64,000 bases of DNA from an uncultured Alphaproteobacteria bacterium (lineage in GTDB: Bacteria > Pseudomonadota > Alphaproteobacteria > Micropepsales > Micropepsaceae), in contig CAIUCH010000054.1 of assembly GCA_903897605.1 (NCBI GenBank), positions 124,001 through 188,000 of the forward strand. Direction: 5' to 3'. A program made the translations under genes and the position numbers. Of this stretch, positions 12,175-62,319 are shown one piece after another (position 1 is the stretch's first letter; the number at the start of each line of letters is the position of its first letter). The notes beneath the pieces were generated by a model. That model searched no databases. It saw only the letters and a program-made list of their open reading frames with translations, and was not told where the DNA came from.

Positions 12175-12879
12175 ATGCGCGTACTCCTGATTGAAGACGA
12201 CAGCGCCATGGCGCGCAGTATCGAGTTGATGCTGCGGAGCGAGGGGTTGAACGTCTACACCACCGATCTCGGGGAAGAAGGGATCGATCTGGGTAAACTT
12301 TACGATTACGACATCATCGTACTCGACCTGCAATTGCCCGACATGTCGGGCTTCGAGGTCTTGAAGGCGTTGCGTGTTGCCAAGGTGCAGACACCGGTCC
12401 TGATCCTGTCCGGTAACGCTATTGTCGAAGCCAAGGTTAAGGCTTTGGGCTTCGGCGCCGACGATTACATGACCAAGCCGTTCCACAAGGACGAGCTGGT
12501 TGCCCGCATTCAGGCCGTGGTTCGCCGTTCCAATGGCCACAGCCAGTCGGTCATCACCACCGGCAAGCTCACCGTCAATCTCGACGCCAAGACCGTCGAA
12601 GTGGACGGCCAGCGGGTGCACCTGACCGGCAAGGAATATCAGATGCTGGAACTTCTCTCCTTGCGCAAGGGAACCACTTTGACCAAGGAAATGTTCCTCA
12701 ACCATCTTTATGGCGGAATGGACGAGCCGGAACTCAAGATCATCGACGTCTTCATCTGCAAGCTGCGCAAGAAGCTGGCGGCGGCGATTGATGGCGACAA
12801 TTACATTGAGACGGTGTGGGGACGCGGCTATGTGCTGCGCGATCCGCAAGACAGCGAACCGGCCGTGGCCGTCGCCTGA
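12175..12879 (+). CDS. ctrA: Cell-cycle master response regulator CtrA
   Basis: 234-residue OmpR-family regulator of replication, division and flagellar genes. The start [20 protein letters not shown] is preferred over an upstream frame extension because GAGGGG lies 7-12 bases before it and all CtrA proteins start here. The receiver has D51 as phospho-acceptor ([11 protein letters not shown]) and [12 protein letters not shown]. The winged helix is nearly invariant ([49 protein letters not shown]). The C-terminus is hydrophobic (VAVA), compatible with ClpXP recognition as in Caulobacter. Divergent from fliI; a clear terminator follows. Confidence 0.98.
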
Positions 12880-41381: not shown

Positions 41382-42071
41382 GTGCCATCATCCAATCATC
41401 CCACCAATGTTCCGCCGGCCGCCGCGTCGCACGACATTGATCTCATGGTCGAGCGGCTGGTCGCGGATCTGCGGCCGGTCGCCAGCCCTCCGGTTGCACG
41501 GCGTCTGGCGCTTGGGCTGGGCGTGGGGCTTGGCATTTCGATTCTGCTGGTGGGAATCACGCTGGGTTATCGCCCCGATATGGCGACCGCGTCCCTGACG
41601 ACGATTTTCTGGATAAAACTCGCCTATGTTTCCGGCATCGGCGCCATCGCGCTGTGGGCGGTGGAGCGGCTGGTGCGTCCGGGCGTGCCGACCGGCAATC
41701 TGCTTTTGTGGCTGCTGGTCCCGGCGATGGCGATGGCGAGTTTGGCTGCTATTCAATTGATCGACGGCCCCGCCGACATGCGGGCGCATTTGATCATGGG
41801 CTTCAGCGCGGTGACGGCGCCCTGGCGCATTCTCGCCGCCGCCGCGCCGCCGCTGGTCGGTCTGGCCTGGGCGGTGCGGGGTCTAGCGCCGACGCGGCTG
41901 GTGTTTGCCGGCGCCATGGTTGGCTTGAGCGCGGGCGGCTTTGGAGCGGCATCCTACGCGATGCATTGCCAGGAATCGGCGGCGCCGTTTCTGCTGATCT
42001 GGTACAGCCTGGGCGTGTTGGCCTGCGGATTCGTCGGCGCGGTTCTGGGGCCGCGTGTGCTGCGCTGGTAG
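41382..42071 (+). CDS. nrsF: NrsF-family anti-sigma factor (DUF1109)
   Basis: 229 residues with six hydrophobic segments (for example ALGLGVGLGISILLVGITLGY and LGVLACGFVGAVLGPRVL at the end). DUF1109/NrsF proteins hold SigF at the membrane and release it under oxidative or metal stress; a Cys in YAMHCQESAAPF (about residue 195) fits a redox sensor. GTG start at 41382. Expressed probably from the SigF promoter 64 bases upstream, giving autoregulation. Confidence 0.82.
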   Translation: MPSSNHPTNVPPAAASHDIDLMVERLVADLRPVASPPVARRLALGLGVGLGISILLVGITLGYRPDMATASLTTIFWIKLAYVSGIGAIALWAVERLVRPGVPTGNLLLWLLVPAMAMASLAAIQLIDGPADMRAHLIMGFSAVTAPWRILAAAAPPLVGLAWAVRGLAPTRLVFAGAMVGLSAGGFGAASYAMHCQESAAPFLLIWYSLGVLACGFVGAVLGPRVLRW

Positions 42072-42125
42072 GGCTATTTGCCGGGAACCCCTGATGGAAA
42101 GGCGCCTCCTCGCAAGCTCGAAGAA

Positions 42126-42152
42126 GCGCTCAGTAAGAAAAACTGGCGCGCC
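42126..42152. repeat. Left copy of split direct repeat near tRNA-Arg
   Basis: GCGCTCAG directly followed by TAAGAAAAACTGGCGCGCC (42134-42152). The same two blocks occur at 43634-43641 and 43666-43684, where 24 bases separate them. The 19-base block includes the last nine bases of tRNA-Arg. It may be an attachment-site scar. The rest of 42072-42336 holds no gene. Confidence 0.6.
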
Positions 42153-42336
42153 GCGCAGGATGAAACAGGGAACTGGCAATTGACGGTCCCGCGCGACCCG
42201 TTCGCGGCGATCAGGGCGTTATGTTTAATCTGACCCCAATTCTTTGCCCCGATTGAAGAGCGAGGTACCAAAATTCGTCTTGCATACACGCGTCAGGTTG
42301 TGGCTTGGTCTGGGTATCGTCGGTTGGGGCCCGAGC

Positions 42337-43359
42337 ATGCGAATTTTCCAGCGCGCTGTTCTTATTTTAAATGGTCTGACCGCTGCCGCTTTTTTTCTGT
42401 CTGTGAATTCTGCACGCGCTGCTGACGCACCTGGGTGCAAGCCGCTCCAACTCATTAACAGCATCAAGATGACGACCAATGAGGATCGGAGCAGGTTCTA
42501 TGTTCCAGTCACCATCAATGGCACGCCTAAGAATCTCCTTCTTGATACGGGCGGGCAAATGACCTCGATCTCACAGAAGGCCGCCAAAGAGCTGAAGCTG
42601 CCGGACATTTTCAGCAAATATAATTCCGGAGATTTGGCCGGTGACACGAGCGACCGAGCCGTTCGTGTCGCGACCTTCGATCTGGGCAATCTGCGGGGAG
42701 AGAACATGAAGTTTCTTGTTGCCCCGTTTCCGAAACTTCCCGGCGAAGCGGCGGGCATACTTTCAGCCGACCTGTTCCTGCAATATGACGTCGACCTGGA
42801 TTTCGGCGCCAATCGCTTGAATTATTTTTCGCAGGACCATTGCGAAGGCCGAGTGGCCTATTGGCCGGAGCGGCCCTTGGCAATCTTGCCGGGCGATTTC
42901 CGCAACGGCTATCTGATCGTTGATGTCACGCTTGATGGCAAGGTTTTTCAAGCCATTCTGGACACCGGCGCGCCGATAACAACTGCCGGTGTCTCGGAAG
43001 TCATCAGCAACTTCCACCTGACACCAGGTTCACCGGAACTGCCGGAGTATACACCGGTGATTAAGGAAGAAGACTTGGTCAAGCCGGAAGACAAGGACAA
43101 GCCCCATTGGAAATCCTATTCCCATAAATTCGAGCGCTTGTCCTTTGGCGATATCACTGTTCTCAATCCGCAGGTGGATCTGTTGCCCGAGACGATCTTC
43201 GGCGGCCCTCTATCCAATCATGGTACGATCATCATCGGTATCAATGTGCTCAGGCAATTGCACATCTACATCGCCTATGGCGAAAAGAAGCTCTATATTA
43301 CGCTCGCAGGCAACGGTGAGTCTGCGCTTGTTAAGCCTATCTCGACGGCTCCACCCTGA
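42337..43359 (+). CDS. Retropepsin-like aspartic protease, secreted
   Basis: 340 residues from ATG 42337 with signal peptide (AVLILNGLTAAAFFLSVNSARA). Two retropepsin-type half-domains: LLLDTGGQMTS (Asp70) and AILDTGAPITT (Asp209), and the ending IIIGINVLRQLHIYIAYGEKKL of the second. Bacterial members of this type are periplasmic or outer-membrane proteases, or ligand-binding relatives. Codon use is visibly AT-richer than neighbours. It lies between a split direct repeat that reaches tRNA-Arg. A longer frame from 42244 is possible but lacks a signal start. Confidence 0.75.
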   Translation: MRIFQRAVLILNGLTAAAFFLSVNSARAADAPGCKPLQLINSIKMTTNEDRSRFYVPVTINGTPKNLLLDTGGQMTSISQKAAKELKLPDIFSKYNSGDLAGDTSDRAVRVATFDLGNLRGENMKFLVAPFPKLPGEAAGILSADLFLQYDVDLDFGANRLNYFSQDHCEGRVAYWPERPLAILPGDFRNGYLIVDVTLDGKVFQAILDTGAPITTAGVSEVISNFHLTPGSPELPEYTPVIKEEDLVKPEDKDKPHWKSYSHKFERLSFGDITVLNPQVDLLPETIFGGPLSNHGTIIIGINVLRQLHIYIAYGEKKLYITLAGNGESALVKPISTAPP

Positions 43360-43675
43360 GCGTCGCTTTGCGGACGCTTCATGGCGATTGATTCCAAACG
43401 CTCGCTCTCGCGTTGCCTGGAATAGAAATGGAGTCAGAGTGGAATTTCTGGGCTCCATTATGGGATGGGCAGGATGGCAGCGGCGTTTGTTGTCACCAGC
43501 CGCCCTCGCTTCGGGCTCTTCGCTCGCGCTCAGAACCCTCCGCTTGAAGCGGCGCCAGGTCCTCTAAGCTCGCTATGCTCGCTAAGAGGGCAGCGGAAGG
43601 GCGCCCACTCGGGTCGCTGCGCGCCCCTCGGTGGCGCTCAGTTTTTCTAAGCTCGCTTCACTCGCTAAGAAAAAC
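43360..43675. other. Hairpin-rich spacer beyond tRNA-Arg
   Basis: No convincing gene. Hairpins: CCTCT...AGAGG around 43560-43588, CCGCTT-GAAGCGG near 43538, and the stem CAGTTTTTCT-A-AGC with GCT-A-AGAAAAACTG at 43639-43677, which on the minus strand directly follows the tRNA and would terminate it. A motif TCTAAGCTCGCT..CTCGCTAAGA occurs twice (about 43562 and 43646), so part of the spacer is repeated. Confidence 0.6.
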
Positions 43676-43684
43676 TGGCGCGCC
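43634..43684. repeat. Right copy of split direct repeat, overlapping tRNA-Arg 3' end
   Basis: GCGCTCAG (43634-43641), 24 bases of hairpin arm, then TAAGAAAAACTGGCGCGCC (43666-43684). The last nine bases belong to the acceptor end and CCA of tRNA-Arg. The copy at 42126-42152 lacks the 24-base insert. Confidence 0.65.
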
Positions 43685-43752
43685 CGGAGAGATTCGAACT
43701 CCCGGCCCTCAGATTCGTAGTCTGATGCTCTATCCAGCTGAGCTACGGGCGC
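43676..43752 (-). tRNA. tRNA-Arg (anticodon ACG)
   Basis: 77 nt with encoded CCA. Acceptor GCGCCCG pairs with CGGGCGC, D-arm AGCUCAGCUGGAUAGAGC, anticodon stem UCAGA/UCUGA with loop CUACGAA (ACG, read as ICG), T-arm CCGGGAGUUCGAAUCUCUCC. G is the discriminator. All four arms fold. The spacer 43753-44053 upstream shows no gene. Confidence 0.97.
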
Positions 43753-44053
43753 ATTCCAAGCCGAAGGGCGCAGAACCTATTGATGCCGCTTCGCAAAGGC
43801 AAGCGCGCGCCCGCCCGTCCCCGCGACCTCACGCCGCTGGGCCGCCAGGGGGCGATTTCGGTGCCCGGATTGCCGCCAAGTCCTCACGACGATTGTGTAA
43901 AACGGCAAAAGCGGGCTCCCATGCCCTTGTCCGTCCTCGTGGGCCTCGTTAAGACTAAACCCCCGCGTCTTGGCTGGCGGGCGTCGGCCAAGCGGGTTGG
44001 GAATGCGTGCCGCCCCCCTTTTTGGGGCAGGGGCGCCGGCAGCGGAGAGCAGA

Positions 44054-45214
44054 ATGAGGGGATATTCAGCCAAACGGGGCCTTAAATCGGGCCTTCTTCT
44101 GGCATGCGTGGTGACGGCGGGCCTGAGCTTGGCTGCCTGTACCGACCTCGACAATATGTTCGACGACAATAACGACATCTCCGCTTCGGATGCTGCAGCG
44201 CCAACCGCGGCCGGCGCCGCCGCGACGCCTGCCCCCACCGCCGAGGCGCCGCCATTGGCTGGCGGCGGCGGCATCGCCCCGGTCGCCACCATCACCCCGA
44301 TCGCGATCGATCCGGGCAGCGATACCGGCACCCAGGTCAGCAAGACCATCCAAACCCTGCGGGGCCAGGTTTCCGGGCTGGAAGGCAAGCTCGGCGCCAA
44401 CGCCCAGCGCCTGGCCGATCTGCGCAACAATGGCGCGGCCGCGGCGGGCGCCTATCAGGAATCCAAGGCGCGGATTACCACCCGGCTCCAGGTCGGCACC
44501 ACCAAGGGCAATCCCGAGCTGGTGAGCGAATGGAATTCCGCACAGGCCTCGCTCGACAGCCTGTCGAGCAACATCAATCAGTTGAACGCGCTTGGCACCG
44601 AAGTGACGGGCGATTCATCCAATGCCCATTTCGCGCTCAACCAGATCGGCGCCACTTTCAATGTGTCCGGCGCGGTGGATGAAGATCATCGTCAGCTTTC
44701 GCTGCTGGAGGATGAAACCAACCAGACCATCGTGCTGATAGACCGGCTGCTGAAGGAAATCTCCGACGATGTGCAGCGCCAGACGGCTTATGCCGCCAAT
44801 GAGCGCAACAATCTCGTCATGCTGTCCAGCGCCGTCAAGAATGGCGAATTGTATGGTGGCACACCGGGCCTGTCGGCTGCCGCGGCTTCGAGCAATCTTC
44901 AGTTCGCGTCCAGCGGCACGCCGCTGGTGGTGGTGCGCTTCGATCGTCCCAATGTGGATTATCAGCAGATTCTGTATGCCGCGCTGAACCAGGCGCTGCA
45001 GTCCCGCCCCAACGCCAATTTCCAGGTGGTCGCAGTGTCGCCGACACGCGGCAACGCTGCCTCGGTGCAGATCGCCCAGACCACGGCCCGCCGCCATGCG
45101 CAGGAGATCATGCGCTCGATGACCGACATGGGCGTGCCCGCTTCGCGCATGAATGTGGCATCGTCCACCGATCCCAACGCCGCTGCCAGCGAAGTGCGCG
45201 TGTTCGTGCGGTAG
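44054..45214 (+). CDS. Uncharacterised lipoprotein with coiled coil
   Basis: 386 residues from ATG 44054, after GGAGAGCAG. Signal ends LLACVVTAGLSLAACTD with lipobox LAAC. Residues about 30-80 are Ala/Pro/Gly-rich. Then long helices (TQVSKTIQTLRGQVSGLEGKL ... NQLNALGTEVTG ... LSLLEDETNQTIVLIDRLLKEI). The C-terminal 85 residues (VVVRFDRPNVDYQQILYAAL ... SSTDPNAAASEVRVFVR) look like an OmpA-like or SPOR-like small domain by pattern. Function unknown; envelope role likely. Confidence 0.7.
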   Translation: MRGYSAKRGLKSGLLLACVVTAGLSLAACTDLDNMFDDNNDISASDAAAPTAAGAAATPAPTAEAPPLAGGGGIAPVATITPIAIDPGSDTGTQVSKTIQTLRGQVSGLEGKLGANAQRLADLRNNGAAAAGAYQESKARITTRLQVGTTKGNPELVSEWNSAQASLDSLSSNINQLNALGTEVTGDSSNAHFALNQIGATFNVSGAVDEDHRQLSLLEDETNQTIVLIDRLLKEISDDVQRQTAYAANERNNLVMLSSAVKNGELYGGTPGLSAAAASSNLQFASSGTPLVVVRFDRPNVDYQQILYAALNQALQSRPNANFQVVAVSPTRGNAASVQIAQTTARRHAQEIMRSMTDMGVPASRMNVASSTDPNAAASEVRVFVR

Positions 45215-62220: not shown

Positions 62221-62319
62221 AAGGTGGAAGCCGGTACGACCCGGACCGAATTCGTTACGGCTGCTTTCTTCCGAACCTGACCGGATTGGCGACAGGTCCG
62301 TCCATACCGACTTCCGAGT
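62221..62319 (-). ncRNA. ffs: Signal recognition particle 4.5S RNA
   Basis: The minus-strand transcript contains the S-domain core GGTCAGGTTCGGAAGAAAGCAGCC (about 62258-62282), matching the consensus with a compensated change (U-A for C-G) at the GGAA tetraloop stem. Flanking arms GGAAGTCGGTATGG and CCGGGTCGTACCGGCTTCC pair to form the long hairpin. A -10-like TTATAT lies just upstream. Location directly upstream of dnaX is usual in alphaproteobacteria. Ends are approximate. The rest of 62162-62381 shows no gene. Confidence 0.88.

Follow-up and report, generated by a model that had tools for sequence, protein, structure and literature searches.

A protease gene between probable copies of a dispersed hairpin repeat, one of them fused to a tRNA-Arg 3′ end, in an uncultured alphaproteobacterium

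The repeats and the gene between them

Does a protease gene flanked by two related repeats, one of which touches a tRNA-Arg gene, mark the place where a mobile element entered the genome? In the 64,000-nucleotide stretch that we analysed as a whole (the window), TAAGAAAAACTGGCGCGCC occurs twice without a mismatch, at 42134-42152 and 43666-43684, the chance expectation for a match with up to three mismatches being 0.01. GCGCTCAG directly precedes it at 42126 and recurs at 43634, there with 24 bases between the two. The first-pass annotation, which had described the pair as joined on the left and split by 24 bases on the right, was accurate, with a sequence match far beyond chance, and the right repeat does end, as it had claimed, in the 3′ end of a tRNA-Arg, identified by ARAGORN as tRNA-Arg(acg) on the minus strand. 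It took the arrangement for a small element in a tRNA-Arg integration scar that had lost its integrase or, failing that, for a duplicated terminator.

The right repeat is part of an inverted repeat with arms at 43639-43652 and 43664-43677, and is contained in a full hairpin (hairpin A, Table 1), the 24 bases being part of the hairpin's head. The stem of hairpin A enters the 3′ end of the tRNA, with which it is still in contact: GCGCCAG pairs with CTGAGCGC. As RNA, this 60-nt stretch folds at -30.8 kcal/mol (z -5.6). The left copy is without the 24 head bases and scores 8.4 bits with R1, our covariance model of the hairpin, which is no better than noise (next chance match 7.7 bits); the 19 and 8 letters identical with hairpin A, together with its tail, suggest that it belongs to the same family. 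That tail, of the TCTTCGAGC type, resembles the tail of a tRNA-Glu hairpin on contig C42 and not that of hairpin A. The left copy and tRNA-Arg have only nine tRNA letters in common (GGCGCGCCA, the last nine of the tRNA), after which hairpin letters follow. Examined as a direct repeat of the kind expected of an att pair, the two copies thus share nine letters of tRNA, and the remainder of the repeat is hairpin.

Table 1. Features of the locus, in window coordinates
Feature	Position	Strand	Basis and remarks
NrsF-type anti-sigma factor, left flank common to G251	41382..42071	+	PF06532; 80% identity in G251
Left copy: collapsed hairpin and second small TCTTCGAGC-type hairpin	42101..42152	-	19+8 letters as in hairpin A; R1 8.4 bits; fold z -1.4
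Degenerate GGGGTCAGA motif	42221..42237	-	2 mismatches; as at the ends of the resident RAYT unit
Two-lobed DTG aspartic protease	42337..43359	+	PF13650; ATG 42337 start and signal peptide are a reading of the sequence; longest frame from TTG 42244
Second degenerate GGGGTCAGA motif, facing the first	43430..43446	+	2 mismatches
Hairpin B (also full), a little downstream of hairpin A	43545..43605	-	R1 56.1 bits (also an R1 seed)
Hairpin A (full), fused to tRNA-Arg at its 3′ end	43628..43688	-	R1 76.5 bits (R1 seed); fold z -5.6; counterpart in G251
tRNA-Arg(acg)	43676..43752	-	ARAGORN; Rfam RF00005; CCA encoded; hairpin A has the tRNA 3′ end as its outer 5′ arm
OmpA-like protein, right flank, adjoins the tRNA in most relatives	43970..45214	+	weak PF00691 match, below cut-off

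The open reading frame between the repeats had been called a two-lobed DTG protease. Indeed, it matches PF13650 (E 2.7e-20) and has both DTG motifs; D101-G103 and D240-G242 (numbering of the 371-aa frame) were invariant in the 17 rows of an alignment that omits three matches with a stop inside the matched stretch (L007, L010 and L014). A predicted structure (mean pLDDT 76.6) matched a Bacteroides endopeptidase (PDB 9iy9) and pepsins with TM-scores of about 0.5; by sequence, the search for a solved relative gave no significant match (best E 0.077). By its motifs and its predicted pepsin-like fold the protein is a clan AA two-lobed aspartic protease. It shares DTG in both lobes and the predicted two-lobed, pepsin-like fold with the known retropepsin-like and pepsin-like proteases (PF13650; PDB 9iy9), from which it differs in being a single-chain bacterial protein that is probably secreted, with a family that is genus-wide and often tandem. 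Read from ATG 42337, with a putative signal peptide, the frame encodes a probable secreted form.

The AT-richer codon use ascribed to the gene was also confirmed: GC3 was 62%, against 72-79% in eight neighbouring genes, and the GC content of 53.2% lay 8.8 points below that of the window (62.0%). However, all 24 homologous stretches compared were 1.3 to 9.3 GC points under their own flanks, so the AT-richness is partly a trait of the family. Homologues were present in 33 of 61 genomes (the own genome included). The nearest, 52-55% identical, stand in groups of three in two relatives (G251 and G235), and a third (G253) has four in a row; the three loci are L303, L304 and L305. The own genome has, on contig C10, an apparently truncated sibling that matches in two pieces, at 63-74% identity. 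The protease is an ordinary paralogue of a large, genus-wide, often tandem, probably secreted family.

Spread and covariation of the hairpin

R1 was built on eight aligned seeds from the own genome and its relatives, hairpins A and B among them, in which 8 of the 16 predicted pairs showed compensatory changes. Searched with it at E<=1e-4, 16 of 41 genomes of the genus (the own genome included) gave a match and 25 did not. The own genome (G000) had ten matches at E<=1, nine of them at E<=1e-8 and one at 6e-4; at the same threshold we found 18 in G009, 13 in G008, 12 each in G014 and G035, and 7 in G006. When 81 matches were aligned, all 16 pairs changed on both sides, 95.8% of cells were paired, and none of 500 shuffles did as well on any of five measures, in an alignment that was fitted to the structure and so leans towards it. 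Matches were few in a sample of the class: six of 190 genomes had one at E<=0.001, and two of the six belong to the own genus. A scan of named genomes for the core pattern returned 30 stretches, mostly labelled Alphaproteobacteria or a subgroup of it, including a Rhizomicrobium MAG; a few carried other labels, such as Parcubacteria or Marinimicrobia. The hairpins are thus a dispersed, covarying family of this alphaproteobacterial genus, and a little-known one. A known RNA family was sought in Rfam at gathering thresholds; the eight sources searched returned five tRNAs and the SRP RNA of the window only, the latter a small one at 62222-62316 on the minus strand.

The 64 copies away from tRNA ends were mostly intergenic (55 of 64): by rough gene calls, 25 lay between convergent genes, 25 between unidirectional and 5 between divergent ones, 7 inside predicted ORFs and 2 at the edge of a stretch. 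Two copies appear by eye to lie inside genes, one transporter-like and one Maf-like (L199, on contig C8 of G006, and L246), and may be translated. The hairpins do not travel with the protease family, as a hairpin was found in none of 23 loci with protease homologues.

The distribution bears on the idea that the repeats are a duplicated transcription terminator, ordinary intrinsic terminators that end the tRNA and the neighbouring genes. Fifty of the 64 copies off tRNA ends lie between convergent or unidirectional genes (by the same rough calls), and the T-run of the hairpin forms part of one terminator-like site on the plus strand (43621-43637). However, on neither strand does the stem have a T-run after it; the runs are inside, T in the 5′ arm and A in the 3′ arm. 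Shuffled sequence gave no fewer terminator-like sites than 41900-44000 did (a mean of 2.4, against one). We therefore regard this explanation as unlikely. As first proposed, it was nearer the truth in that the repeats are copies of one family; the canonical layout of a terminator, with the T-run outside the stem, is what they lack.

Hairpins at tRNA 3′ ends

We read 80 places with their flanks, a set that omits 11 weaker ones (E 1e-6 to 1e-4) among the matches at E<=1e-4. Thirteen hairpins lay at a tRNA 3′ end, meaning that the stem starts inside the last letters of the tRNA or about one base from the CCA; two lay beside a displaced tRNA end and 65 elsewhere. By a rough estimate of our own (50 tRNAs, 8 start positions, 3 Mb, both strands), random placement would give about 0.005 in 80. 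The tRNAs concerned were Arg-acg, Arg-ccg, Glu-ctc, Glu-ttc, Ile-gat, Leu-taa and Pro-tgg, and in the own genome 4 of 10 hairpins were so placed. The named set, in which some records are genomes already counted, had 7 of 30 at tRNA ends and added Val-gac. Beyond the genus, two of five inspected places (a sixth, L268, being left out) were at tRNA ends, Arg-acg in G163 and Trp-cca in G210. Altogether, nine kinds of tRNA carry the hairpin at their 3′ end. The portions of the literature that our search covered held no description of hairpin repeats at tRNA 3′ ends. In one MAG labelled Marinimicrobia (L251), a tRNA-like 3′ end with a hairpin has no intact tRNA within 600 nt upstream; an integrated element may have its right end there.

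In all 16 rows chosen among hairpins whose stem includes the tRNA end, the discriminator faced its complement in the arm, C opposite G73 in 13 of 13 and T opposite A73 in 3 of 3 (pairs assigned by eye). These rows were picked by hand: four are displaced tRNA ends, two of them among the three A73 rows, and the set contains neither G250 nor L244, L254 and L257, near-duplicates with an identical arm. Duplex energies calculated with swapped 3′ arms agreed for G73, where the difference was clear (GCGCCA ends, -9.1 versus -7.0), and were flat for A73 (GCACCA ends, -8.3 versus -8.2). GCGCCAG arms also occur in copies distant from tRNAs (L199 and L194).

The tRNA-Arg(acg) loci hold hairpins with other heads as well. 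Among 29 such loci (window included), eight had a strong local hairpin starting in the last six letters of the tRNA, with z from -1.9 to -7.5, a count that leaves out weaker folds pairing some of these letters (for example L062, L307 and L060). In four of the eight (G001, G017, G254 and G036) the head is unrelated to that of the family; there are two head types, one of them common to G001, G017 and G036. These four hairpins (L063, L064, L309 and L312), which keep the layout and pair with the end of the same tRNA, would favour selection on the structure and a role for it. The tRNA-linked hairpins may be kept as 3′-trailer structures, covering the acceptor end and CCA before processing; the present data accommodate either such a trailer or a palindrome that prefers tRNA ends. 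As a tentative proposal, somewhat short of an even chance, the element settles at tRNA 3′ ends with a 3′ arm matched to the acceptor end, discriminator included, and would be either a mobile palindrome whose arm takes up a copy of part of the target, or a trailer structure under selection, locking the pre-tRNA at its CCA end.

Turnover of the interval between NrsF and tRNA-Arg

A search of the whole genus yielded one syntenic relative, G251, which is also the nearest relative found (contig record CALMGU010000116); with NrsF as a guide, 40 relatives had given only diverged homologues. Seven of eight flanking query proteins matched in G251 in the same order, at 69-90% identity: carboxylesterase, chorismate-mutase-like protein, sigma factor and NrsF on one side and, beyond tRNA-Arg, the OmpA-like protein, a methyltransferase and yidC on the other. 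The eighth, a tannase-like gene further left, had no match in the G251 stretch. Between NrsF and tRNA-Arg, G251 has no protease but a GreA/GreB-like gene and two SnoaL-like genes, and no left copy stands next to its NrsF. The interval holds a single, full hairpin. Its alignment with hairpin A, at 84%, spans 86 columns and includes the tail; the hairpin is displaced from its own tRNA by 123 nt. Since the counterpart includes the tail, hairpin A would be the old copy and the left copy the newcomer.

Around tRNA-Arg and the OmpA-like gene, the protease was absent at this place from all 27 informative loci among 29 in relatives (of the other two, one has no tRNA and one stops 28 nt past it); the gene with both repeats is not conserved here throughout the relatives. 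This absence, together with the different content in G251, shows that the hairpin interval between NrsF and the tRNA is a variable spot, whose content turns over between species.

A variable spot from which relatives lack the gene is what the integration scar proposed at the outset would predict, and this part of the proposal stood; the repeats as its att sites were not supported. In that proposal, the protease came with an element that entered tRNA-Arg at its 3′ end and has lost its integrase, and the repeats would be attL and attR. The protease is AT-rich as well as absent here from relatives, and the left copy does hold GGCGCGCCA before its hairpin letters. Tyrosine integrase att sites sit at tRNA 3′ ends, as the hairpins do, and att-like duplications adjoin hairpins in three relatives. 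In G014 (L121), 226 nt of AT-rich DNA, in which GTTTGGGAGG is repeated, separate an intact tRNA-Glu(ttc) from a second copy of its last 44 nt (two mismatches); the hairpin comes after that copy, and the duplication looks like a true integrase scar. In G006 (L068, 6390-6508) and G251 (L306, 7200-7325), tRNA-Arg(acg) is followed by 118 and 123 nt, respectively, and by a second copy of its last 16 nt, with one mismatch in the former and exact in the latter, and then by the hairpin; the two inserts are related in sequence. Insertions, then, occur at such tRNA ends and displace the hairpin, whereas in the window hairpin A still touches its tRNA. We also noted another small tRNA-end duplication in G253 (L307; tRNA-Arg at 12415-12491, minus strand), where CGGGCGCGCCATTCCT, present at the tRNA end, is found a second time 61 nt downstream.

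It is these scar-like duplications and the nine tRNA letters in the left copy that leave integration at the window a small chance. Unlike an att site, however, the hairpin is not a duplicated fragment of the tRNA; instead, the tRNA end has its complement in the 3′ arm. By an att model the old copy should be the left one, while it is the full hairpin on the tRNA side, tail included, that has the counterpart in G251, and the tail of the left copy differs from that of hairpin A. As GCGCCAG arms are found off tRNAs (L199 and L194), the nine common letters need no tRNA. A relative without the protease had been predicted to hold a single joined repeat; the one syntenic relative, whose interval has other genes in it, holds one full split copy instead, and no joined empty site was seen in relatives. 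Furthermore, the closest protease homologues stand in tandem arrays (G251, G235 and G253). An integrase relic was not noticed at the locus, a weak argument by itself: both integrase matches listed for the own genome (two of four) are on other contigs, and comparison by eye of the PF00589 matches listed for relatives found none beside tRNA-Arg. On balance, we consider integration improbable.

Capture by the resident RAYT/REPIN system, whose Y1 tyrosine transposase would have brought the protease in with an end motif on both sides, is very doubtful: a single Y1 transposase unit is present in the genome, with three derivatives of about 145 bp beside another tRNA-linked hairpin, and degenerate GGGGTCAGA motifs flank the protease (Table 1), but these are oriented wrongly for a unit (right end, gene, left end), unrelated-looking matches occur at their level of two mismatches each, and three of five genomes rich in hairpins, examined for both, gave no match to a Y1 transposase. 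The unit itself, with GGGGTCAGA ends (L228; G000 C42:16646-19747), makes up a small REPIN system together with its three derivatives and a bare palindrome of its two ends on contig C30 (L229; C30:30030-30068). Spread of the hairpin by a resident RAYT was rejected, as G006, G009 and G014 have 7, 18 and 12 hairpin matches at E<=1 and no Y1_Tnp match.

The hairpins also differ from known REPs. The RAYT unit ends in GGGGTCAGA motifs and not in the hairpin, so the shared ends of a REPIN are lacking. Copy numbers (10 in G000, up to 18 in G009) are low beside the over 100 per genome usual for REPs, going by the part of the source consulted (PMC2817692), and by eye neither a GTAG nor a CGTC tag stands out in the eight-seed alignment or the 80 listed copies. 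The CGTC-type REPs of Alphaproteobacteria, in the sections seen of their description, have stems of 8-9 bp, loops of 4-5 nt and a CGTC-type tag (PMC3733652). Like our hairpins, they are dispersed palindromes that have no linked transposase, lie mostly between genes close to gene 3′ ends and are widespread in the class, whereas the hairpins have at least 16 pairs, no CGTC tag, about ten copies per genome and a covarying arm; a preference for tRNA 3′ ends is not mentioned for CGTC-type REPs in those sections (PMC3733652). To GTAG REPs and REPINs with RAYT, as far as the same sections describe them (PMC3733652), the likeness is that the own genome holds a RAYT unit with palindromic derivatives beside one tRNA-linked hairpin; the hairpin consensus, however, has no GTAG tag, and hairpins are found in genomes without a Y1 transposase match.

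We thus think it probable that the repeats are copies of the dispersed, covarying hairpin, one of them fused to tRNA-Arg, and that the protease is an ordinary gene in a variable interval. One full copy would form a single stem with the 3′ end of tRNA-Arg(acg), and would be old, since G251 has its counterpart; a second full copy stands next to it, and a collapsed copy, apparently of another subtype, lies 1.5 kb away after NrsF. Loss of the head is a common fate of palindromes, and the left copy may be an independent or derived member of the family that lost its own. The protease would have arrived by ordinary gene turnover.

The part worth following is the habit of the hairpin of standing at tRNA ends; the protease is an unremarkable member of its family. 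Repeats at tRNA ends are usually taken for integration scars, and a hairpin family that mimics such scars could mislead those who search for islands in Alphaproteobacteria. If the tRNA-linked copies are maintained, they would indicate either a level of tRNA 3′ maturation that has gone unstudied or an element that is directed to tRNA ends by pairing with them.
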